In this document: one piece after another, positions 5,687-63,479 of the stretch
Position numbering within the stretch: the first letter of the stretch is position 1
Layout: every line of letters begins with the position of its first letter
NCBI GenBank assembly: GCA_003543135.1
Contig: DPJG01000027.1
Span: 248,001 to 312,000, forward strand
Reading direction: 5' to 3'
DNA: 64,000 nt
Source: Rheinheimera sp.
Lineage (GTDB): Bacteria; Pseudomonadota; Gammaproteobacteria; Enterobacterales; Alteromonadaceae
Program-made: the position numbers and the translations under genes
The notes under the pieces: model-generated
Databases searched by the model: none
Seen by the model: the letters and a program-made list of their open reading frames with translations, nothing else
What the model was told of the DNA's origin: nothing

Positions 5687-8284
5687 ATGGCGAAATCACT
5701 GGTAATAGTCGAATCACCGGCAAAAGCTAAAACAATTAATAAATATTTAGGTAATGATTTTATTGTAAAAAGTAGTGTGGGCCATATCCGCGATTTGCCT
5801 ACCAGCAGCAATAAAGACAAAGAAAAAAGCAAAACCGACAAAAAGCTGGAAAAGGCGCAAAAAGAGTATTTAGCGCTGGTTGACCGTATGGGCATAGATC
5901 CGGAAAACGGCTGGAAAGCCCGTTATGAAATTCTGCCGGGCAAAGAAAAGGTTGTGAAAGAACTCAAAGCCTTAGCCGAAAAAGCCGACACTGTTTATCT
6001 GGCAACGGACTTAGACCGCGAAGGAGAAGCTATTGCATGGCATTTGCAACAGATCATCGGCGGTGAAGAGCAAAAATTTAAAAGGGTGGTCTTTAACGAG
6101 ATCACGCAAAATGCCATTAAAAATGCTTTTGTTGAACCTGGTCAGGTGAATGTAGACCGGGTAAACGCCCAGCAAGCCCGCCGGTTTTTAGACCGGGTGG
6201 TGGGTTTTATGGTATCCCCGCTGCTGTGGAAAAAAGTTGCCCGCGGTTTATCAGCAGGCCGGGTGCAATCTGTTGCAGTACGGTTAGTGGTTGAGCGTGA
6301 ACGTGAAATTAAAGCTTTTGTACCTGAAGAATACTGGACAGTAGATGCACAAACGCTGTCGGCGGCCAAAGCTGCGTTAAACCTTGAAGTGGTGCGGCAA
6401 AACGGTAAAACCTTCAGGCCGGAAAATAAAGCGCAAACTGATGCTGCGGTAGCGCTTCTGCAACGCGCCAGTTATCAGGTGACAGAGCGCGAAGACAAAC
6501 CGTCCAGCAGTAAACCTCAGGCCCCTTTTATTACGTCCACCTTGCAGCAAGCCGCCAGTACCAGGCTGGGTTATGGTGTGAAAAAAACCATGATGCTGGC
6601 GCAGCGTTTGTACGAAGCCGGTTACATCACTTATATGCGTACCGACTCGACGAATTTGTCGACCGAAGCTGTTACTGCCGCGCGCGAATTTATTGAACAG
6701 CAATTTGGCAAAAAATATCTTCCTCCTGAGCCTTTAAGCTACGGCAGTAAAGCCAATGCCCAGGAAGCGCACGAAGCTATTCGTCCTTCAGATGTGAACA
6801 TTCAGGCCAGCATGCTGGGGGATATGGAAGCTGACGCCAAAAAACTCTACGAGCTGATTTGGCGGCAATTTGTGGCTTGCCAGATGCCAAATGCGCTGTA
6901 TGACGTGACCAATATTACAGTCCAGGCCGGCGACTTTGAGCTCAAAGCCAAAGGCCGTGTATTGCGTTTTGATGGTTGGACCCGGGTACAACCGGCGCAA
7001 AAACGCAAAGATGAAGAAGAAAGAGAATTACCTGATTTAACAGTGGGTGAAAAGCTGGTGCTGGAACAGCTGTTACCGGCGCAGCACTTTACCAAACCAC
7101 CGGCTCGTTTTAGTGAGGCCAGTCTGGTCAAAGAGCTGGAAAAACGTGGTATTGGCCGTCCTTCTACTTATGCGGCCATTATCTCCACTATTCAGGAACG
7201 TGGTTATGTCAAGGTTGAGAACAAAAGGTTCTACGCCGAAAAAATGGGTGAAATAGTGACAGACCGGCTGGTGGAAAACTTCAGCGATTTGATGAACTAT
7301 GACTTCACCGCCAATATGGAATTAAAATTGGATGATATTGCCCATGGCGAATTGTCCTGGCGCCAGGTGCTGGACCAGTTTTATGGCGACTTTTCCACCA
7401 AGTTAAAAACCGCCGAAGCCGATGTTGAACATGGCGGCATGCGTACCAATCAGTTTGTGTTAACGGACATTGACTGCCCGAGTTGTGGCCGGAAAATGGG
7501 GATCCGCACCGCCAGTACCGGCGTGTTTTTAGGCTGCTCCGGTTATAACCTGCCGCCCAAAGAACGTTGCACCACCACCATGAATTTAACCCCTGGTGAT
7601 GAAGCAGTGTTAGTAGCGGACGAAGATGAGCTGGAAACTGAGGTACTGCGCCATAAAAAACGTTGTGCCAAATGTGGTACCGCTATGGATTCTTATCTGC
7701 TGGACGAGCATCGCAAGCTGTATGTGTGTGGTAATAACCCAGGCTGTGATGGTTATCTGGTGGAAAGTGGTGCCTTTAAAATTAAAGGGTACGATGGCCC
7801 GCTGATCGAATGTGAAAAATGCGGCTCAGACATGCAATTAAAGTCGGGGCGTTTTGGTAAATATTTTGGTTGTACCAACAGCGACTGTAAAAATACCCGC
7901 AAACTGCTGAAAAACGGGGAAGCAGCGCCGCCAAAAGAAGATCCGGTGCACTTACCTGAACTGCTTTGTGAAAAGTCAGACGCCTATTTTGTGCTGCGTG
8001 ATGGTGCTGCCGGTCTGTTCCTGGCTGCCTCTACTTTCCCGCGCTCACGTGAGACCAGAGCGCCGTTAGTGGCTGAATTACAACGCTTTAAAGACAGATT
8101 AGTGCCGAAGTTTTTATATCTGACCCAGGCACCGGCCACAGATCCTGCCGGCAACCCAAGCATAGTGCGCTGGAGTCGCAAGACCAAACAGCAGTATGTG
8201 ATGTCGGAAAAAGACGGCAAAGCAACAGGCTGGTCTTTATGGTTTAAAGACGGTAAATGGCAGGAAAGTAAAGCCGAAGCTTAA
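5687..8284 (+). CDS. topA: DNA topoisomerase I (type IA)
   Basis: Relaxes negative supercoils by transient single-strand cleavage. 865 residues, the usual length. The N-terminal Toprim domain begins [16 protein letters not shown] and has the acidic DLDREGEA motif. The catalytic tyrosine is Tyr316 in [10 protein letters not shown]. The C-terminal part carries three four-cysteine zinc-ribbon modules (starting [16 protein letters not shown] and CEKCGSDM), then a basic tail. cysB lies downstream in the same orientation, as in E. coli, but here two minus-strand genes are inserted between them. A strong terminator follows. Confidence 0.98.
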
Positions 8285-36422: not shown

Positions 36423-36452
36423 TGATCCAAATTGATGGTTAGACTGTAAAGC
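36423..36452 (+). promoter_or_regulatory. Candidate ECF (RpoE/ChrR-type) promoter of the photolyase operon
   Basis: TGATCC at 36423-36428, an 18-base spacer, and TAAAGC at 36447-36452. As I recall it, the singlet-oxygen sigma factor of Rhodobacter sphaeroides (ECF11 type, held by ChrR) uses a TGATCC -35 and a TAA-type -10 at this spacing, and its regulon includes photolyase and a Cfa-like gene, as here. The element would start transcription about 25 bases before the first ATG. A TGATCC hexamer alone is common, so the call rests on position plus gene content. Confidence 0.5.
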
Positions 36453-36484
36453 ATTGTATCCGCGACAGTAATTGAAGAATCATT

Positions 36485-37426
36485 ATGACAATTCAGATTG
36501 GCATCAGCGCCTGTGTACTGGGTGAAAAAGTGCGTTATGACGGTGGTCATAAAAACTCGCCATTTTGCTCCGATGTATTAGCCAACTTTGTATCTTATGT
36601 ACCGGTGTGTCCTGAGCTGGCGATAGGTCTTGGCACACCAAGGCCAGCCATCCGCCTGATGCAAAAGTCGGATGGTGAAGTCCGCCTGGTGAACAATAAA
36701 GACAGCAGCATTGATTTTACTGAAAAAATGCACGCTTTCAGCGACGCTAAACTGCCGTCCTTGCAGCAGCTGTCGGGTTATATTGTCTGTGCTAAGTCTC
36801 CCAGCTGTGGCATGGAGCGGGTGCGTCTGGTCAATGAAAAAGGTGAGTTACAGGGAAAAATTGCCACCGGGCTTTTTACCCGCCGTCTGATGCAGGCTTA
36901 CCCCTGGTTGCCGGTGGAAGAAGATGGCAGGTTGCTGGACGCTGAGCTCAGAGAAAACTTTATTACCCGGGTCTATGCCATTCATGCCTGGCAACAGCAG
37001 ATGCAGGATGGTTTTAGCATTGGCAAGCTGGTGAGTTTTCACAGCCAGTTTAAATTTTTGATCATGGCGCATCACCCAGGTGCTTACCGTGAGCTGGGCC
37101 GTTTGGTGGCCAATGCCAAACTATTCAGTCCGGATGAGTTGGCAAATCGTTATTTACTGGATTTTAGCCGGGCGCTGAAACAACAGGCCACGCGCAAACA
37201 ACAAGCCAATGTGCTGATGCACCTGCAGGGCTTTTTTAAACAGATGTTGTCAGCCGATGCCAAACAGGAATTGTTGCAGCTTATCCATCAGTACCGGCTT
37301 GGGCACGCACCTTTGCTGGCGCCACTGACTTTATTAAAACACCATCTTCGTCAGCATCCACAACCCTATCTGGCTGCGCAAAGATACCTGCAGCCTTTTC
37401 CGGCTGAGCTGGGTTTAAGAGCGTAA
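36485..37426 (+). CDS. DUF523–DUF1722 fusion protein (TudS/YbgA type)
   Basis: 313 residues. N-terminal half (1-150) is DUF523, the family that includes the Fe-S thiouracil desulfidase TudS, with the three conserved cysteines in ISACVLG (Cys10), VCPE (Cys42) and SPSCG (Cys108). C-terminal half (about 190-305) is DUF1722, the E. coli YbgA domain. YbgA neighbours phrB in E. coli, and phrB follows here after 4 bases. First gene of a six-gene operon. A role in repair or detoxification of modified bases is inference. Confidence 0.9.
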   Translation: MTIQIGISACVLGEKVRYDGGHKNSPFCSDVLANFVSYVPVCPELAIGLGTPRPAIRLMQKSDGEVRLVNNKDSSIDFTEKMHAFSDAKLPSLQQLSGYIVCAKSPSCGMERVRLVNEKGELQGKIATGLFTRRLMQAYPWLPVEEDGRLLDAELRENFITRVYAIHAWQQQMQDGFSIGKLVSFHSQFKFLIMAHHPGAYRELGRLVANAKLFSPDELANRYLLDFSRALKQQATRKQQANVLMHLQGFFKQMLSADAKQELLQLIHQYRLGHAPLLAPLTLLKHHLRQHPQPYLAAQRYLQPFPAELGLRA

Positions 37427-37430
37427 CGTT

Positions 37431-38861
37431 ATGGCTGGTTTTTCAATTTTGTGGTTACGTAACGATTTACGTTGTTATGACAACGCCGCGCTGCACAGTG
37501 CTGTCGCGCTCGGTTTGCCGGTGCTTGCCGTTTTTATTGCCACGCCAAAAAGCTGGCAGCAACATCAGATGGCGCCGATAAAACAGGATCTGATCCGCCG
37601 CCGGGTGCAGGCGATGCAACAAGAGCTTGCCGCCTGTGGCGTAACTTTATTGGCGATTGAAGGCTCAGACTATCAGCACTGCGCCGGACAACTGGCCACT
37701 CTTGCCGAACTTGGCGCTGTGGCTTTGTTTGCGCAAACAGACTATGAACTGCGTGAACAGCAAAGAGATGCAGCTGTCAGTTCCAAACTGGCACAAATCG
37801 GCATCCCTTGTCATTTTGTTGATACCCAGTGTTGTTTTGCACCAGGCACTGTGCTCAGTAAAACCGCTGAAGTTTATAAAGTATTTACCCCTTTTAAGAA
37901 AACCTGGCTGCAAAAACTGCAGGCTGCGCCCCTGATATGTTTACCAAAACCAAAACAGTTGGCCGCGCCAGGGCTGACTTTGCCAGCATCACTGACGCCT
38001 ATGCTGCCAGGTGACAACAGATCGGCTGCGTATCCGGTAGAGGAGCGGCAAGTGCTCGACATGCTCCGCAGTTTTTGTACTGAGCGGGTGCAGGATTACC
38101 AGAAGCTGCGCGACTTTCCGGCCAAACCCGGCACTTCGGGTTTATCGCCTTATCTTGCTATTGGCGTGCTGTCTCCCCGTCAGGCGGTTGCCAGATTGTT
38201 GCTGGAGCAAGGCGACAGCTGTTATCAGGAGGGCTCAGGTGCGGCTGTGTGGCTCAGTGAGCTGATTTGGCGCGAGTTTTATAAACATATTCTGGTTGCT
38301 TATCCAAAATTGATTAAACATCAGCCATTTCAGCAAGATACCGCAGCTATCGTTTGGGGCAATAATGAAAAATGGTTTCAGGCCTGGTGTGAAGGCCGCA
38401 CCGGTTACCCTATTGTCGATGCGGCTATGCGCCAGTTGAATCAAACCGGTTGGATGCATAACAGGCTCAGGATGATAGTGGCTAGTTTTCTGGTGAAAGA
38501 TTTACAAATCGACTGGCGCTGGGGTGAAGCTTATTTTATGTCCAGGCTGATTGACGGCGATTTTGCCGCTAATAATGGCGGCTGGCAGTGGGCCGCTTCC
38601 ACCGGTACAGACGCTGCGCCTTATTTCCGTATTTTTAATCCGGTGACACAAAGCGAAAAATTTGATCCCAATGGCGATTTTATCCGTTGTTTTGTCCCTG
38701 AGCTGGCAAAGTGCAATAACAAAGAGGTGCACTGGCCTCATCCGTTGCCGATGTCGGTCAATTACGTGAAACCTCTGGTGGACCATGCCAAAGCCAGGCT
38801 CAGAACCCTTGAGATCTTTAATGCGGTGAAAAAGCCGGCAGGAGTGCTAAGCAGTGATTGA
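37431..38861 (+). CDS. phrB: Deoxyribodipyrimidine (CPD) photolyase
   Basis: 476 residues. Light-driven repair of cyclobutane pyrimidine dimers with FADH-. N-terminal antenna domain (FSILWLRNDLRCYDNAAL) and C-terminal FAD domain with the class I signatures TGYPIVDAAMRQL, TGWMHNRLRMIVASFL and DGDFAANNGGWQWAASTGTD, which supply FAD contacts and electron-transfer tryptophans. Overlaps the next gene by eight bases. Confidence 0.97.
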   Translation: MAGFSILWLRNDLRCYDNAALHSAVALGLPVLAVFIATPKSWQQHQMAPIKQDLIRRRVQAMQQELAACGVTLLAIEGSDYQHCAGQLATLAELGAVALFAQTDYELREQQRDAAVSSKLAQIGIPCHFVDTQCCFAPGTVLSKTAEVYKVFTPFKKTWLQKLQAAPLICLPKPKQLAAPGLTLPASLTPMLPGDNRSAAYPVEERQVLDMLRSFCTERVQDYQKLRDFPAKPGTSGLSPYLAIGVLSPRQAVARLLLEQGDSCYQEGSGAAVWLSELIWREFYKHILVAYPKLIKHQPFQQDTAAIVWGNNEKWFQAWCEGRTGYPIVDAAMRQLNQTGWMHNRLRMIVASFLVKDLQIDWRWGEAYFMSRLIDGDFAANNGGWQWAASTGTDAAPYFRIFNPVTQSEKFDPNGDFIRCFVPELAKCNNKEVHWPHPLPMSVNYVKPLVDHAKARLRTLEIFNAVKKPAGVLSSD

Positions 38862-39324
38862 TTTTGCCGAACATAACTCACAAAGCACGCAAAATTCCTT
38901 GCGTTTGCAGCAATTTGTCGATTTTTATAATGCGTTATCAGCCAGTAATCTGGCCGATTTAAGCCGGCTGTATCACCAGGATGTAGTTTTTGTTGATCCC
39001 GTGCATCAGATCAAAGGGCTGCAAGGGCTGCAGAGTTATTTTGAGCATGCTTATGAAAGGCTCAACAGCTGTCATTTTACGCCGGTGCAGCAAGCAGGCA
39101 CAGCTGAACAGGGTTTTATCAGCTGGCGTATGCGTTTAAGTCATCCGGCTATCAATAAAGGCGAGTTGTTTGACGTAGAAGGTTGCTCTGAGCTGCGCTG
39201 GCATCAGGATGGCCGCATTATTTACCATCGTGATTATTACGATTTAACCGACATGGTGTACCGGCATATTCCGCTACTTGGCTGGCTGACAGCAAAAGTG
39301 AAACAAAAAATGGCGCAAGACTAA
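38854..39324 (+). CDS. NTF2-like/SnoaL-like protein
   Basis: 156 residues, GTG start inside the end of phrB. Predicted cone-shaped NTF2-like fold: FVDFYNALSASNLADLSRLY helix pair, then VVFVDPVHQIKGLQGLQSYF and later beta strands (GRIIYHRDYYDLTDMVY). Proteins of this type accompany the FAD oxidoreductase–DUF1365–Cfa set in other gammaproteobacteria. Substrate unknown. Confidence 0.85.
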   Translation: MIDFAEHNSQSTQNSLRLQQFVDFYNALSASNLADLSRLYHQDVVFVDPVHQIKGLQGLQSYFEHAYERLNSCHFTPVQQAGTAEQGFISWRMRLSHPAINKGELFDVEGCSELRWHQDGRIIYHRDYYDLTDMVYRHIPLLGWLTAKVKQKMAQD

Positions 39325-39335
39325 GGAACAAATTG

Positions 39336-40589
39336 ATGCAAATTGCAGTAATAGGCGGCGGTATCGCCGGCATGATGAGTTGGTACTTATTAAAACCTGA
39401 GCATCAGGTGACCTTGTTTGAAGCCAATGATTACCTGGGCGGTCACACTGCCACTGTGGATGTCAGTGTTGGCGGAAAAAATTACGCTATAGACACTGGT
39501 TTTATCGTGTTTAATAACTGGACTTACCCGCTATTTAACCGTTTTCTGGCCCAGCTAAAGGTGCCGTTTCAGCCAACTGAAATGAGCTTTTCGGTGAAAA
39601 AGCCTGCGGCAAACCTGGAGTATAACGGCAATACCTTCTGGAGCTTATTTGCACAAAAACGTAATTTGCTGCGCCCGTCGTTCTGGCGGATGCTCAGACA
39701 TATTGTGCGTTTTAATAACACGTCCAAGCAGCTGTTGGCTGAAAATAGCCCGGATCTCGACTTAAAAATGGATGATTTTTTGCACAAATATGGTTTTGGC
39801 AAAGAGCTGCGTGACCACTATCTGTTGCCGATGGGCGCTGCCATCTGGTCTTCCGGCCTGACTGAGATGCCGGAGTTTCCGCTGAGATTTTTCCTGCAAT
39901 TTTTTAAAAACCATGGACTACTCAATATTACCGACCGGCCACAGTGGGCGGTAATTAAAGGTGGTTCCCGCAGTTATGTAGAGGCCATGTTGCAGCAGCA
40001 AGGCTCGGACGGCATCAGGTTAAATAGCCCGGTGCGAGAAGTTCGCCGTTTTGAGGATAAAGTGGCTATCACGCTGGTAACGGGTGAAACCCAGTATTTT
40101 GACCAGGTCATTTTTGCCTGCCACAGCGATCAGGCGTTAAAGATGCTCGCAGACGCCAGCCTGGCTGAACAGCAGGTGCTGGGTGGCATTGCTTATCAGG
40201 AGAATACTGTAGTGCTGCATACCGACAGCAGCATTTTGCCAAAACGCCATGCCGCCTGGGCGTCGTGGAATTATCTGCTGGATGACAGTTCAAAGCAAAA
40301 AGCGACGCTCAGCTACAATATGAACATATTGCAAGGCATTGAAAGCGAACATACTTTTGTTGTTTCACTCAATGCCGGTGATAAGATTGATCCACAAAAA
40401 GTACTGAGAACTTTTAACTACGCCCATCCGGTGTATAACCATTTTACGATGTTGTCGCAGCAGCGCCGCCATGAAATCAATGGCCAGAACCGCAGTTATT
40501 TTTGTGGTGCTTATTGGTATAACGGTTTTCATGAAGACGGTGTGCGAAGTGCAGTGGATGTCGCCGCTATGCTTGGAGTGAAATTCTGA
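39336..40589 (+). CDS. FAD-dependent oxidoreductase (amine-oxidase/desaturase-like)
   Basis: 417 residues. Rossmann dinucleotide site IAVIGGGIAGM at the N terminus, followed by the FEANDYLGGHTATV segment that binds FAD, and a C-terminal closing region (YFCGAYWYNGFHEDGVRSA), the pattern of the NAD(P)/FAD-binding amine oxidase superfamily. The ATG with AAGGA upstream is chosen over a TTG one codon earlier. Its stop shares one base with the DUF1365 start. Probably acts on lipid acyl chains with the downstream methyltransferase; that is inference. Confidence 0.9.
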   Translation: MQIAVIGGGIAGMMSWYLLKPEHQVTLFEANDYLGGHTATVDVSVGGKNYAIDTGFIVFNNWTYPLFNRFLAQLKVPFQPTEMSFSVKKPAANLEYNGNTFWSLFAQKRNLLRPSFWRMLRHIVRFNNTSKQLLAENSPDLDLKMDDFLHKYGFGKELRDHYLLPMGAAIWSSGLTEMPEFPLRFFLQFFKNHGLLNITDRPQWAVIKGGSRSYVEAMLQQQGSDGIRLNSPVREVRRFEDKVAITLVTGETQYFDQVIFACHSDQALKMLADASLAEQQVLGGIAYQENTVVLHTDSSILPKRHAAWASWNYLLDDSSKQKATLSYNMNILQGIESEHTFVVSLNAGDKIDPQKVLRTFNYAHPVYNHFTMLSQQRRHEINGQNRSYFCGAYWYNGFHEDGVRSAVDVAAMLGVKF

Positions 40590-41338
40590 TGCAATCAGGG
40601 CACGCCTGGTACCAGGGCCGGGTTGGCCATCAGCGTTATTCGCCAAAATCACATGGTTTTGGCTATAACGTCAGTTATTTATGGCTTGATTTACAGCAAC
40701 TTGACACATTGGCGGGGTTTGGGCGCTATTTAGGGCTGGAAAAGTTTGCCGCCTGGAGTTTCAGACGCAGTGATTACCTGCAAGGCTCAGTTGATTTGGC
40801 GCAGGCGGTAAAAGACAAAGTGAAAGTGCTGGGCGGCGATAAAGAAGTACAGCAGGTGTTTTTGCTAAGCCCATTAGCGAACTTTGGCGTTTTTTTTAGC
40901 CCTTTGACTTTGTATTACTGTTATGCTGATTCTAAGCCATTGTATTTACTAGCAGAAGTAAGTAACACCCCCTGGAACGAACGGCATTATTACCTGATCC
41001 CGTTAAATCCGATGGGTGACACCGAGTTTTGCCATGATAAAAATTTTCATGTATCGCCTTTTAATCCGCTCGATATGCAGTATCAGTGGAAAATTGCCGC
41101 GCCTGATGCAGCCTGTCAGCTCAGTATCAGTAACTGGCGTTGCGGCGAGAGGGTGTTCAGTGCCTGGCTGGATTTGACCCGGCACGAGCTGAGCCGCCGC
41201 AGTGTGCGACAGCAGCTGATCCGCACGCCATGGCAGAACGTACAAGTGGTGTTTCGAATTTATTGGCATGCACTGAAACTTTTGGCAAAAAGACTACCAG
41301 TGTATGACCACCCGCAGCCTAAGGAACCTTTGTTATGA
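40589..41338 (+). CDS. DUF1365 protein
   Basis: 249 residues, DUF1365: opens GRVGHQRYSPKSHGFGYNVSY and contains LSPLANFGVFFSPLTLYYCY and the DKNFHVSPFNPLDMQY stretch, with conserved His and Asn. Function unproven in most organisms; in lipid-modifying clusters it may be an oxygenase-type partner of the methyltransferase. Overlaps both neighbours (1 and 4 bases), so it is coupled in translation. Confidence 0.9.
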   Translation: MQSGHAWYQGRVGHQRYSPKSHGFGYNVSYLWLDLQQLDTLAGFGRYLGLEKFAAWSFRRSDYLQGSVDLAQAVKDKVKVLGGDKEVQQVFLLSPLANFGVFFSPLTLYYCYADSKPLYLLAEVSNTPWNERHYYLIPLNPMGDTEFCHDKNFHVSPFNPLDMQYQWKIAAPDAACQLSISNWRCGERVFSAWLDLTRHELSRRSVRQQLIRTPWQNVQVVFRIYWHALKLLAKRLPVYDHPQPKEPLL

Positions 41339-42579
41339 CATTATCAATTGCCGGATCCTCGGTACTGGCCAATCTGGGTATGCTGGATAAAATCTGCCGT
41401 AATCTGATGCTGAGTTATCTTGCCAGTCTGCAGCAGGGTTGTATTGAACTGGTGGAAGGCCACGATAAACAACTGCTGGGCGACCCTCAGGCTGATTTGC
41501 GGGTCACGCTCACTGTAGTTGACCCTGCTTTTTATCAAAAGCTGGTGCTGGGCGGCTCAGTAGGCGCAGGAGAGTCTTATATTGAAGGGCACTGGCGCAC
41601 CGATAATCTGACGGCGCTGGTGCAGATTTTTGCCCGCAATATGGCGTTGCTGGACAAACTGGAGTCGGGCTGGGCCAGACTAAGCAAACCAGCGCTCAAG
41701 TTATTAAACTGGCGTAACCGCAATTCAGTTTCACAATCTAAAAAGAATATTTCTGCCCATTATGATTTGGGTAACAGCATGTATCAGCTGTTTCTCGATA
41801 ACAGCATGATGTATTCAAGCGCTGTGTATCCATCCCCTGAAGCCAGTCTGGCTGAAGCGCAGCAACACAAACTGAAGCTGATTTGTGACAAGTTACAGCT
41901 TAAAGCCTCGGATCATCTGATAGAAATTGGCACCGGCTGGGGCAGTCTGGCTATTTTTGCCGCCCGCAATTATGGCTGTCGGGTCACCACCACCACGATT
42001 TCACGTGAGCAGTTTGACTACGCCAAAAAACAAATTGAAGCGGCTGGTCTGTCTGAACAAATCACTTTGTTGTTTCAGGATTACCGTGAGCTCAGCGGTC
42101 AGTACGACAAGCTGGTGTCGGTAGAAATGATTGAAGCCGTAGGCCACGAATACCTGGATGGTTATTTTGCCAAGTGTTCGTCTTTACTCAAACCAGAAGG
42201 TCTGATGGTGCTGCAGGCCATTACCATTGCCGATCAGCGGTATGAATTTTATCGTCGTGAAGTCGACTTTATTAAAAAGTTTGTGTTTCCGGGCGGATGT
42301 TTACCTTCGATGCTGCGGATGACTCAGGCTGCTGCACAACATACCGATTTGGTGATCCGTCATGTGCAGGATATTGGTCTGGACTACGCCCGTACTTTAG
42401 CCGACTGGTGTAATAATTTTATGGCGGCCAGAGATGCGGTGCATCAGCTGGGCTATGACGATCGTTTTGTCAGGCTGTGGCACTTTTATCTTTGTTATTG
42501 TGAAGGTGGCTTTTTAGAGCGCGCCACCAGTGCCGTGCATCTGGTATTAACCAAGCCGGGGCATCGTCAGCCGGTTTAA
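41335..42579 (+). CDS. Cyclopropane-fatty-acyl-phospholipid synthase family methyltransferase
   Basis: 414 residues. SAM-dependent methyltransferase of the Cfa/CmaA class: SAM motif I LIEIGTGWGSLAI near 196, ISAHYDLGNSMYQLFLD before it, SREQFDYAKKQI after it, and the C-terminal HFYLCYCEGGF with the catalytic-region cysteine. Methylates unsaturated acyl chains in membrane lipids to cyclopropane or methylated products. In Rhodobacter a relative works in furan fatty acid synthesis, so the exact product here is open. Last gene of the operon. Confidence 0.92.
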   Translation: MTLSIAGSSVLANLGMLDKICRNLMLSYLASLQQGCIELVEGHDKQLLGDPQADLRVTLTVVDPAFYQKLVLGGSVGAGESYIEGHWRTDNLTALVQIFARNMALLDKLESGWARLSKPALKLLNWRNRNSVSQSKKNISAHYDLGNSMYQLFLDNSMMYSSAVYPSPEASLAEAQQHKLKLICDKLQLKASDHLIEIGTGWGSLAIFAARNYGCRVTTTTISREQFDYAKKQIEAAGLSEQITLLFQDYRELSGQYDKLVSVEMIEAVGHEYLDGYFAKCSSLLKPEGLMVLQAITIADQRYEFYRREVDFIKKFVFPGGCLPSMLRMTQAAAQHTDLVIRHVQDIGLDYARTLADWCNNFMAARDAVHQLGYDDRFVRLWHFYLCYCEGGFLERATSAVHLVLTKPGHRQPV

Positions 42580-42690
42580 AACAGCTGATTTACCACCGGC
42601 GCTGAACTATGTTATAACTTTCTTAAGCTAAACAATTAGTTCGGTCCGGTGGGACCGTTACAGGTGGTTCTGTATTATGGATCCTGTACT

Positions 42691-45141
42691 ATGACCCGCG
42701 CTATGGATGAGTGGTCTGCAGCCCAGCCTGCCGATGTAGCAGAGCTACAACAACAAAACAAAACCTTGTTGGCGCAACGCCATGAATTGCTGCAGCAAAA
42801 CCTGCAGCTGCAACGTGAAACCTCTATTCTGCATCTGATCAACAAATTGGCGTTACAGCTTAACGAGTTGATGACGCCCGCCGATATTTATCCTTTTGTC
42901 GCACAGCAAGTAGCCGCTGCTCTTGGTTTTGAAGATTGTGCTATTTTTGTCGCCGATGCCAAAAGCCGCACTCTGACCCGGGTGGCTGCTGTGGGTTCCA
43001 GAGACTTACCGCATCATCAGGGCCTGGGTGTATTGTCTTATGGCCAGGGGATAGTCGGGCAATGTGCGGTGCAGCAACAAAGTATTCTGGTGGCCGACAC
43101 CAGGCAATGTCAGCATTATCTGAAGGATGTTTCAGAGCGGTTATCTGAGCTCGCCGTGCCCGTACTGGAGCAGGGCGAATTACTGGCCGTGATTGACTGT
43201 GAGCAGTGGGACGCGCACTTTTTTAATGATCAGCATCAGCAGATCCTGGAGCATGTAGCCTCTATTCTCAGCAGCCGGCTACGCAAATTACAGGATTTGG
43301 CGGCCCTTGAGCTGTCGATTAAAAAGCTGGAATATGCTGAGCTGGTGCAAAAGGCGTTATTTAATATTGCATCACTGAGTTACGACGCCGACGACTTTAA
43401 CGCTTTTTACCAGCATATCCACCAGAACGTCAGTTCGTTAATTTACGCGCCAAATTTTTATATTGCTTTGTATGATGACAAAGACGAGGTGCTGCATTTT
43501 CCCTATTTTGTTGATACCACAGAACATATCAGCCCAACCACCATTTACCCCAAGGAAATTCTGGCCAATAGTCTGACCGGCTTTGTGTTTCGCACCGATG
43601 AGCCGCTGTTGGCCGACAGGGCATTGCTGGAAGAGTTTGACCGCACCAAGGTGGTGACCGCCTATGGCTCAGCTCCTGAAAGCTGGCTGGGGGTGCCATT
43701 TCGCTCCGGCGACGCTGTGCGTGGCGTGGTGGTGGTGCAAAGTTATGATCCCGGCATCAGTTATGATCAAAAAGATTTAGAGCTGCTGACCTTTGTGTCC
43801 CAGCATATTTCCAGTGCGCTGGAGCGTGCTTTTGTACAACAAAGGCTGCGCCATCAGGCGCTGCATGACGCGCTGACCAATCTGCCAAACCGGCTGTTAT
43901 TTATCGACAGAGTCAATCACGCTTTTAAACGGCGGTTTCGTTATCCGGACAAACTGGTGGCTGTGCTTTATCTGGATTTAGACCGGTTTAAAATGGTTAA
44001 CGACACCCTGGGTCATCAGGTGGGCGATGAATTTTTAATAGCAGTGAGCGGGGCACTGAAAAGTTGCCTGCGGCAAAATGACACCCTGGCGCGCCTTGGC
44101 GGTGATGAGTTTGCCATCTTGCTGGAAGACGCCAAAACAGTGCCTGATGTGATTGAAGTTGCCGAGCGGATAGCTGCTACATTGCAGCAGCCTTTTGCCT
44201 TAAAACAGCATCAGTTGCAAACATCCACCAGTATTGGTATTGCGCTGGCGGATGTCACCACAGAGCAGATGGACACGGACGAGCTTATCCGCCGTGCGGA
44301 TATTGCCATGTATCAGGCCAAACAGGATGGCCGTGGCATTTGGCGGCAATTTTGCAGTGAAATGGATTTTGCCACCACAGCCCATTATCAGCTGGAAACT
44401 GAACTTAAAGCAGCCCTGCAACATAGCCAGTTTGTACTTTATTATCAGCCTATTATCGATTTATCAAGCGAAGAAACCCTAGGTTTTGAGGCGCTGATCC
44501 GCTGGCAGCATCCGGAGCGGGGGCTGTTGTCACCAGCGGACTTTGTGCCGCTGGCCGAAGAGCTTGGACTGTTAACCCAGATTGATTTGTATGTAGTGCA
44601 GGCTGCGGTGAAGCAGCTGAATGCATGGCGGCTTGATTTTGCCAACCCCTTTTATGTCAGCGTGAATGTGTCGGGCCGCAGTTTTTCCGATGCTGATTTT
44701 TCGCATAAGGTGCTGGATTTGCTGGCGCAGGCCGGTGTACAGCCGCATTATCTGGCGATTGAAATTACCGAAAGTGCACTGATTGATAAAATGGCGCAGG
44801 CCAAAATCAGCATTGATTGTTTAAGAGCAGCCGGTGTAAAAGTGTTGCTGGATGACTTTGGCACCGGTTATTCCAGCTTAAGTTATCTGCACGAATTTCA
44901 GCTGGATGTACTAAAAATTGACCGCAGTTTTATCGCCGGCATTCGCCCGAGAATTCAGGAAAACCCGGTGGTTAATACCATCATTACCCTGGCAAAAACT
45001 TTGTCACTGACCGTCATTGCCGAAGGCATTGAAACCAGCTTACAACGCAAATTGTTATCAGAGCTCGGTTGTGATGCCGGTCAGGGGTATTGGTTTGCCA
45101 AAGCACTGACGGCTAAAGAGGCCAGTAGCTGGCTGCGCTAA
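42691..45141 (+). CDS. GAF–GAF–GGDEF–EAL cyclic-di-GMP protein
   Basis: 816 residues. A short N-terminal coiled coil (about 15-45) precedes two GAF-type sensor domains (about 45-190 and 225-370). The GGDEF domain has GGDEF at 470-474 with an RxxD inhibitory site (RQND) five residues earlier, and the EAL domain has EALIR at 600-604 and DDFGTGYSS at 721-729. Both catalytic motifs are intact, so it could make or degrade c-di-GMP; bifunctional activity needs assay. No transmembrane segment, so cytosolic. Start choice: ATG (MTRAMDEWS); a GTG 42 bases upstream also lacks a clear ribosome site. Confidence 0.9.
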   Translation: MTRAMDEWSAAQPADVAELQQQNKTLLAQRHELLQQNLQLQRETSILHLINKLALQLNELMTPADIYPFVAQQVAAALGFEDCAIFVADAKSRTLTRVAAVGSRDLPHHQGLGVLSYGQGIVGQCAVQQQSILVADTRQCQHYLKDVSERLSELAVPVLEQGELLAVIDCEQWDAHFFNDQHQQILEHVASILSSRLRKLQDLAALELSIKKLEYAELVQKALFNIASLSYDADDFNAFYQHIHQNVSSLIYAPNFYIALYDDKDEVLHFPYFVDTTEHISPTTIYPKEILANSLTGFVFRTDEPLLADRALLEEFDRTKVVTAYGSAPESWLGVPFRSGDAVRGVVVVQSYDPGISYDQKDLELLTFVSQHISSALERAFVQQRLRHQALHDALTNLPNRLLFIDRVNHAFKRRFRYPDKLVAVLYLDLDRFKMVNDTLGHQVGDEFLIAVSGALKSCLRQNDTLARLGGDEFAILLEDAKTVPDVIEVAERIAATLQQPFALKQHQLQTSTSIGIALADVTTEQMDTDELIRRADIAMYQAKQDGRGIWRQFCSEMDFATTAHYQLETELKAALQHSQFVLYYQPIIDLSSEETLGFEALIRWQHPERGLLSPADFVPLAEELGLLTQIDLYVVQAAVKQLNAWRLDFANPFYVSVNVSGRSFSDADFSHKVLDLLAQAGVQPHYLAIEITESALIDKMAQAKISIDCLRAAGVKVLLDDFGTGYSSLSYLHEFQLDVLKIDRSFIAGIRPRIQENPVVNTIITLAKTLSLTVIAEGIETSLQRKLLSELGCDAGQGYWFAKALTAKEASSWLR

Positions 45142-63176: not shown

Positions 63177-63479
63177 ATGATGTATTACATGATTTATTCT
63201 GAAGATGTCGCCGATAGTCTGGCGCAGCGTAAAATCACCCGTCCGGCGCATCTGGCGCGTTTAGAGCAACTGGCAGCTGAAAACCGCTTGTTAGTGGCTG
63301 GTCCATTACCTGCCGTGGATGCGGAAGATCCGGGCGAAGCCGGTTTTACCGGTTCATTGGTGGTGGCTGAATTTGCATCACTTGAGGAGGCTCAGCAGTG
63401 GGCAGCTGCTGATCCTTATCTGGCGGCAGGTGTGTATAAAGAAAGCACCGTCAAACCATTTCGCAAAGTATTGCCGTAA
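63177..63479 (+). CDS. yciI: YciI-family protein
   Basis: About 100 residues from [14 protein letters not shown], with GAAGGGA upstream (the second Met is an equal start). Ferredoxin-like YciI fold: [24 protein letters not shown] and [18 protein letters not shown], with the family His-Asp pair (HLARL, D-P-Y). Role unknown. Ten bases upstream of galE. Confidence 0.93.

Follow-up and report, generated by a model that had tools for sequence, protein, structure and literature searches.

What would bind a tRNA-modifying enzyme, a photolyase and a set of lipid enzymes into one run of genes, and which signal would switch that run on? The question is raised by a 64,000-nucleotide stretch of Rheinheimera sp. 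(assembly GCA_003543135.1, contig DPJG01000027.1, positions 248,001 to 312,000; hereafter the window), in which six open reading frames (ORFs) occupy positions 36485–42579 on the + strand, with junctions of +4, −8, +8, −1 and −4 nucleotides, three of the five overlapping. A sequence-only reading of this DNA had described the six genes as tightly packed, had assigned them to DUF523/DUF1722, PhrB, NTF2-like, FAD, DUF1365 and Cfa-like families, and had proposed a photo-oxidative stress operon that couples the photolyase to the lipid set. The packing (junctions of −8 to +8 nucleotides) is as described and the domain calls are borne out by Pfam matches; the core of the proposal is well supported by the promoter, by synteny and by published homologues, while three of its parts needed mending. 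I estimate at roughly 0.8 the probability that the six genes constitute a singlet-oxygen (RpoE2/ChrR) target operon of Rheinheimera. The content and order of the locus, as read directly from the DNA, are the following:

36423..36450, + strand: putative RpoE2/ECF11-type promoter, TGATCC (36423–36428), 16 nucleotides, TGTAAA (36445–36450); assigned by motif and conserved in relatives.
36485..37426, + strand: RudS, predicted tRNA 4-thiouridine desulfidase, 313 amino acids, a TudS/DUF523 domain fused to DUF1722; assigned by PF04463 (130 bits), PF08349 (140 bits) and residues.
37431..38861, + strand: PhrB, predicted class I deoxyribodipyrimidine photolyase, 476 amino acids; assigned by the NF007955 equivalog (591.3 bits, cut-off 506), PF00875 and PF03441.
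38854..39324, + strand: SnoaL_2/NTF2-like protein, 156 amino acids; PF12680 (59 bits), position kept in relatives.
39333..40589, + strand: UfaD-like flavin adenine dinucleotide (FAD) oxidoreductase of the Amino_oxidase family, 418 amino acids; PF01593.
40589..41338, + strand: UfaO-like DUF1365 protein, 249 amino acids; PF07103 (232 bits).
41335..42579, + strand: UfaM-like S-adenosylmethionine-dependent fatty acyl methylase (Cfa homologue), 414 amino acids; PF02353 (CMAS).
42649..45141, + strand: GAF-GAF-GGDEF-EAL protein, flanking and taken as outside the operon; downstream in part of the clade (defined below) only.

The promoter motif lies 34 nucleotides ahead of the first ATG and has the form TGATCC-N16-(C/T)GTAA, with TGTAAA, not CGTAAT, as its −10 element. 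In Shewanella, promoters of the sigma factor RpoE2 are of the TGATCC/CGTAAT type, with transcription starts mapped for rpoE2 and pgpD, and the form found here matches that of the five published sites (PMC4336711). The same report describes that expression of RpoE2 raises transcription of SO_3386, and that 'ybgA' forms one target operon with phrB and cfa. This Shewanella oneidensis operon, SO_3386–SO_3374, resembles the Rheinheimera one in having ybgA (RudS) as its first gene, in carrying phrB and cfa, and in its type of promoter (PMC4336711). At the RudS locus of Shewanella ANA-3 (L176), the promoter letters are identical to those published for SO_3386; this locus adds MerR, SDR, Chalcone_3-like and DUF3833 genes and counts ten families, whereas the Rheinheimera clade has six genes. 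A desulfidase-like gene at the head of the operon, as had been pointed out, is not an unusual feature, since Shewanella has 'ybgA' under RpoE2 (PMC4336711).

Two sets of relatives, which share genomes, were compared. Set 1 was chosen by the presence of DUF1365 (the gene is found in 46 of 60 genomes), and for that reason gives no frequency for DUF1365 alongside the other genes. Set 2 consists of the best 80 of at least 567 RudS loci, of which 20 belong to the Rheinheimera/Arsukibacterium/Alishewanella clade and 60 are the nearest outside it only. Eighteen of the 20 clade loci bear such titles; the remaining two, L147 and L150, come from metagenome assemblies titled Gammaproteobacteria, and were assigned to the clade from the identity of their RudS proteins (73% and 65%).

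Gene order is intact in all 18 genus loci of set 1 that span RudS to DUF1365 (L056–L073, with Cfa off the contig in L069), and one further genus genome keeps the order, split across two contigs. In set 2, the six-gene order lacking MerR and SDR is found in 20/20 clade loci (the last gene of L147 is cut by the contig end) and in 0/60 others. Among the 60 outside loci, PhrB is present in 53, MerR in 39 and all three ufa genes in 30, and these 30 have SDR without exception and MerR in 28 cases. Because the form free of MerR and SDR was seen only in the clade among these loci, it is read as a clade-specific variant of the known gammaproteobacterial RpoE2/ChrR photo-oxidative stress cluster.

Conservation of the promoter motif is likewise observed directly. 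The strict site, TGATCC-N16-YGTAA, precedes rudS in all 19 genus loci of set 1 that include the rudS start; another genus locus (G007) is cut by a contig end, and the genus genome G018 has no DUF1365 match. In set 2 the strict site lies ahead of RudS in 14/20 clade loci, against 86 of 20000 random draws (230-nucleotide stretches taken from clade loci), and chance is therefore unlikely. A looser pattern, [TC]GATC[CT]-N16-NGTA[AT], was picked after the misses of the first, with the random draws as its control, and is found in 18/20 clade loci against 127/20000 draws, or in 19/20 if the start of L150 is set at the match start. A promoter score of at least 12 ahead of RudS is reached by 15/20 clade loci and 14/60 others, compared with 68 and 74 of 3000 random stretches, respectively. 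Scans for sigma-70 promoters and terminators showed no excess over shuffled sequence, which could be taken to mean that the six genes are neighbours without a shared function and that the promoter match is fortuitous. Given that order, junctions and promoter are conserved across the clade, and that SO_3386, at the head of the Shewanella operon, is transcribed RpoE2-dependently (PMC4336711), I find this explanation hardly credible.

The singlet-oxygen operon reading can be followed into the rest of the 3.99-Mb genome, where TGATCC-N15-18-YGTAA has 17 matches and the reversed pattern has 2. The exact N16 spacing is present in six of the 17; two of these fall within ORFs and four head genes, namely the six-gene operon, a three-photolyase operon, folE2 and a DUF2805-SDR pair. 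The first two are plainly light-related, and the other two may be. The three-photolyase operon (L272, 5482–10135, on contig C34) encodes a DPRP-type protein followed by two FAD_binding_7 proteins, with the sigma-E-like site ahead of it; in Shewanella, SO_4169, a target of RpoE2, also bears a photolyase-related name (PMC4336711). The exact site of folE2 lies about 199 nucleotides upstream of the gene and is conserved in 8/19 genus genomes and in none of 4 others with a match, and that of DUF2805 in 4/21 genomes with a match; both sites are therefore lineage-specific. One TGATCC-N16-CGT match, inside phrB at 38663, was set aside and attributed to the photolyase protein motif FDPxGxFIR; relatives have similar matches within phrB too, ahead of the NTF2-like gene and often with CGTAA. 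A second sigma-E-like sequence, TGATCC-N17-TGTAT, occurs in the window at 63410 (+).

The absence of a sigma factor/ChrR pair, which the sequence-only reading had remarked on together with a suggestion to look elsewhere in the genome, holds within the window but not across the genome. A pair is found on contig C9 of the same genome (G000, locus L005), encoding an ECF sigma factor of 220 amino acids and a ChrR of 235 amino acids, the latter with a Cupin_7 match over the cut-off and an H-x3-C-x2-C motif. Cupin_7 matches on contig C7, in a 231-amino-acid protein, were rejected as ChrR, no sigma gene being visible by eye in that 3.3-kb locus. Strong ChrR matches (E ≤ 1e-20) occur in 42/46 genomes with the DUF1365 gene and in 0/14 without it, these being related genomes and not 60 independent events. 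The only one of 22 genus genomes without a DUF1365 match, G018, is also without a strong ChrR match; its assembly is 91% complete. Outside the genus, rpoE-chrR lies inside the fetched stretch in 16/25 loci of set 1, and rudS immediately follows chrR on the same strand, with gaps of −1 to 95 nucleotides, in 7 of the 14 RudS loci. Plasmids of the alphaproteobacteria Mesorhizobium terrae and Azospirillum sp. B510 carry FAD, DUF1365 and Cfa genes divergent from rpoE-chrR, and homologues of RSP1091–1090 are reported to adjoin rpoE-chrR often (PMC3818230).

A B12-dependent repressor of the MerR/LitR type could instead exert light control, as it does on phrB-rudS in Pseudomonas, where the PhrB-LitR-RudS operon is under LitR (PMC11417400). 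The 39 outside loci with a MerR gene fit this alternative, as does the blue-light response of V. cholerae, which is described as depending on MerR as well as ChrR. Against it, MerR was not found in any of the 20 clade loci, the best match to it in the Rheinheimera genome is not orthologue-grade (33% over residues 4–76 of 276, E 2.8e-6), and the promoter of the operon has the sigma-E form. Control by LitR instead of sigma-E/ChrR thus seems quite improbable. The MerR gene occurs in many Vibrio, Photobacterium, Aeromonas and Shewanella loci of set 2.

Several observations weigh against assigning the operon to RpoE2/ChrR. Its −10 element differs from the CGTAAT of Shewanella. Among the 20 clade loci, Rheinheimera D18 (L152) is without a recognisable promoter site, and in five others (L148, L149, L150, L153 and L154) the first T of the −35 element is changed to C, its last C to T, or both. 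That only 14/60 non-clade loci reach the score of 12 suggests that RudS may be otherwise controlled in many genera. In set 2, ChrR was found in the fetched stretch of none of the 20 clade loci and of 2/60 outside ones (two Photobacterium loci, where it is divergent from rudS), and rudS directly after chrR in 0/60 loci outside the clade. Finally, no TGATCC site was found ahead of rpoE-chrR in any of 21 genus loci, which makes autoregulation doubtful; other TGATNN matches are present in 7/21, that of the Rheinheimera locus itself being TGATGT-N16-GATAAT. The control of the genus rpoE-chrR pair (L005, L105–L125), having no TGATCC promoter, may thus differ. Several other genera do have a TGATCC promoter before rpoE.

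The first protein of the operon is, as judged from its domains and residues, RudS, a tRNA 4-thiouridine (s4U) desulfidase with intact catalytic residues. RudS enzymes strip s4U from tRNA, and C17, C49, C114, E51, S111, S113 and R60 are needed in that of P. putida (PMC11417400); all are present in Rheinheimera, as C10, C42, C108, E44, S105, S107 and R53. N26, a tRNA contact of the P. putida enzyme, corresponds to D19 in Rheinheimera and is Asp in all 11 aligned. ThiI, the maker of s4U, is encoded in the same genome (224.6 bits, contig C28). The role of DUF523/DUF1722, which the sequence-only reading had left open, was thus mostly in print already (PMC11417400). The authors of that 2024 study pointed to operons that respond to light and to control by LitR, and put forward a role for RudS in limiting the crosslinking of s4U; the words RpoE, ChrR, furan and singlet oxygen are absent from its text as available (PMC11417400). 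In Shewanella, a 2015 study counts a gene of this kind, under the name 'ybgA', among the members of the RpoE2 regulon (PMC4336711). Thiobases sensitise the formation of singlet oxygen, with yields of 0.14–0.58, and 4-thiouracil is termed an effective sensitiser (PMC6152766, PMC7695249). Because 4-thiouridine is itself capable of producing singlet oxygen, RudS may eliminate a singlet-oxygen source besides a crosslinking target, although flavins and porphyrins may contribute far more than s4U.

The last three genes match, by family and context and not by direct comparison with the Rhodobacter and Rhodopseudomonas enzymes, the UfaD-UfaO-UfaM set of furan fatty acid synthesis. The chemistry of this pathway, also presented as open in the sequence-only reading, is for the most part published: UfaM adds a methyl group to cis-vaccenate chains, UfaD introduces a double bond into the methylated product, and UfaO, which is a DUF1365 protein, forms the furan ring by inserting oxygen taken from O2 (PMC7380195). 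In Halomonas, where ufaD and ufaO are consecutive with the gene for UfaM, that UfaM is reported to yield 11-methyloctadec-12-enoate in E. coli (PMC12089945). Two published similarities underlie the reading of the FAD gene as UfaD: Arabidopsis AT3G23510 shares 38.5% identity with UfaD (PMC10940516), and related cotton synthases bear an N-terminal FAD oxidase domain (PMC3132707). Compared with the Mesorhizobium terrae set that stands beside rpoE-chrR, the FAD protein is 40% identical, the DUF1365 protein 30% and the methylase 38%.

The methylase itself scores below the Cfa equivalog cut-off (NF008686, 290 bits against 400). The bicarbonate-site residues listed for E. coli Cfa, C139, E239, H266, I268 and Y317 (PMC3132707), correspond in it to S, E, Q, I and Y, with S162 and Q294 at the C139 and H266 positions. 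The Gln is shared by 96/96 cluster-linked methylases (sets pooled and not de-duplicated), which at the C139 position have Ser in 84, Ala in 9 and Cys in 3; a second Cfa of Mesorhizobium and three solved Cfas keep both His and Cys. A second Cfa was not found in the Rheinheimera genome, where the next match is 28% over 136 residues (E 4.6e-6). The Q and S residues mark a subfamily and leave the product unfixed: the idea that they rule out a cyclopropane product was dropped, and it counts against the furan assignment that cotton GhCPS1, which has the same two residues in place of H266 and C139, makes cyclopropane acids (PMC3132707). A cyclopropane or simply methyl-branched acid would also be in keeping with the CMAS family of the enzyme, and with the cyclic acids detected besides in the Halomonas UfaM strain (PMC12089945). 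It would be less in keeping with the low Cfa equivalog score and with the finding that 49/49 methylase loci in set 2 also have the FAD and DUF1365 genes, the latter being the family that forms the furan ring (PMC7380195). I regard such a product as unlikely, with some real weight left to it, and prefer the methylated furan acid.

The SDR gene, whose absence had also been remarked on, is indeed missing from the window but probably not from the genome. In Salinivibrio kushneri the cluster runs RudS-MerR-PhrB-NTF2-SDR-FAD-DUF1365-Cfa-DUF2878-Chalcone_3-like-DUF3833 (its Chalcone_3 match falls below the Pfam cut-off, and its counterpart of the SnoaL_2/NTF2-like gene is annotated 'nuclear transport factor 2 family protein'). 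In Rheinheimera, contig C8 carries an SDR gene followed by DUF2878 and Chalcone_3 genes, and a DUF3833 gene lies on C10. The C8 SDR is 44% identical to that of Salinivibrio over residues 4–239 of 241, and is probably the counterpart of the one absent from the operon. Since all four families are present elsewhere in the genome, these genes have probably been split off and not lost. No sigma-E-like site was detected before the C8 set, directly ahead of which stand many CTTCAAA(C/T)-like tandem units (L135, about 7610–7770).

On its 5′ side the operon is flanked by a PheT-like gene (named by eye) and then by an HU/IHF-family gene, which from its position may be ihfA; on the 3′ side are the GAF-GGDEF-EAL gene and, on the opposite strand, CvfB- and YaeQ-family genes. 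PheT, IHF and CvfB flank the operon in 19/20 clade loci, the contig of L147 ending too early. The GAF-GAF-GGDEF-EAL gene starts 69 nucleotides past the operon on the same strand, and was considered as a seventh member. It was dropped because it stands downstream of Cfa in 8/20 clade loci only; in 11/20 it was not found between Cfa and CvfB, and one contig is too short.

The use of the promoter, the activities of the enzymes and the lipid product are inferred from homologues, and on these a mechanism can be proposed. Light and photosensitisers would generate singlet oxygen, which would inactivate ChrR and release the ECF sigma factor, and the released factor would direct transcription of the operon from the promoter at 36423. 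RudS would strip from tRNA the s4U that is a near-ultraviolet crosslinking target and also a singlet-oxygen sensitiser, and PhrB would repair pyrimidine dimers. UfaM would methylate an unsaturated phospholipid acyl chain, UfaD would add a conjugated double bond, and the insertion of oxygen by UfaO would yield a methylated furan fatty acid, a presumed singlet-oxygen scavenger. By analogy with Rhodobacter, the furan fatty acid may also keep the turnover of ChrR going.

Each part of this scheme has a known parallel. Rhodobacter sphaeroides (ufaM and RSP1091–1087) likewise has UfaD, UfaO and UfaM with sigma-E/ChrR (PMC7380195, PMC3818230, PMC6852236). It differs in that ufaM is unlinked (PMC12089945) and the ufaD/ufaO operon adjoins rpoE-chrR, and the descriptions available of that operon include no RudS or photolyase. 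The Pseudomonas phrB-litR-rudS operon likewise joins a photolyase and RudS in one light-responsive unit, but under the light-sensitive LitR and not sigma-E/ChrR, and the available text mentions no ufa genes (PMC11417400). Halomonas sp. YLGW01, a gammaproteobacterium, likewise has three consecutive ufa genes, with no RudS or photolyase neighbours in the description at hand (PMC12089945).

Judged against the open-access literature, the novelty lies chiefly in linking RudS with the singlet-oxygen regulon and in the hypothesis of source control, the single parts being known. Put together, the 2015 Shewanella paper and the 2024 RudS paper raise a direct question: does singlet oxygen trigger the removal of s4U, and does this in turn lower singlet-oxygen damage? 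I tentatively suggest, while holding it to be possible and still on the unlikely side, that RudS belongs to the sigma-E/ChrR regulon for the sake of source control, as stripping s4U would remove an abundant ultraviolet-A chromophore that both crosslinks tRNA and makes singlet oxygen; in the Rheinheimera clade, with MerR gone, singlet oxygen, and not light as such, would then be the only signal for the erasure of s4U. The question can be put cleanly in the Rheinheimera operon, because the MerR gene is missing and a single sigma-E-like promoter stands before genes for tRNA, DNA and membrane. If the suggestion is true, the signal that frees the sigma factor would also trigger the removal of one of its own sources.

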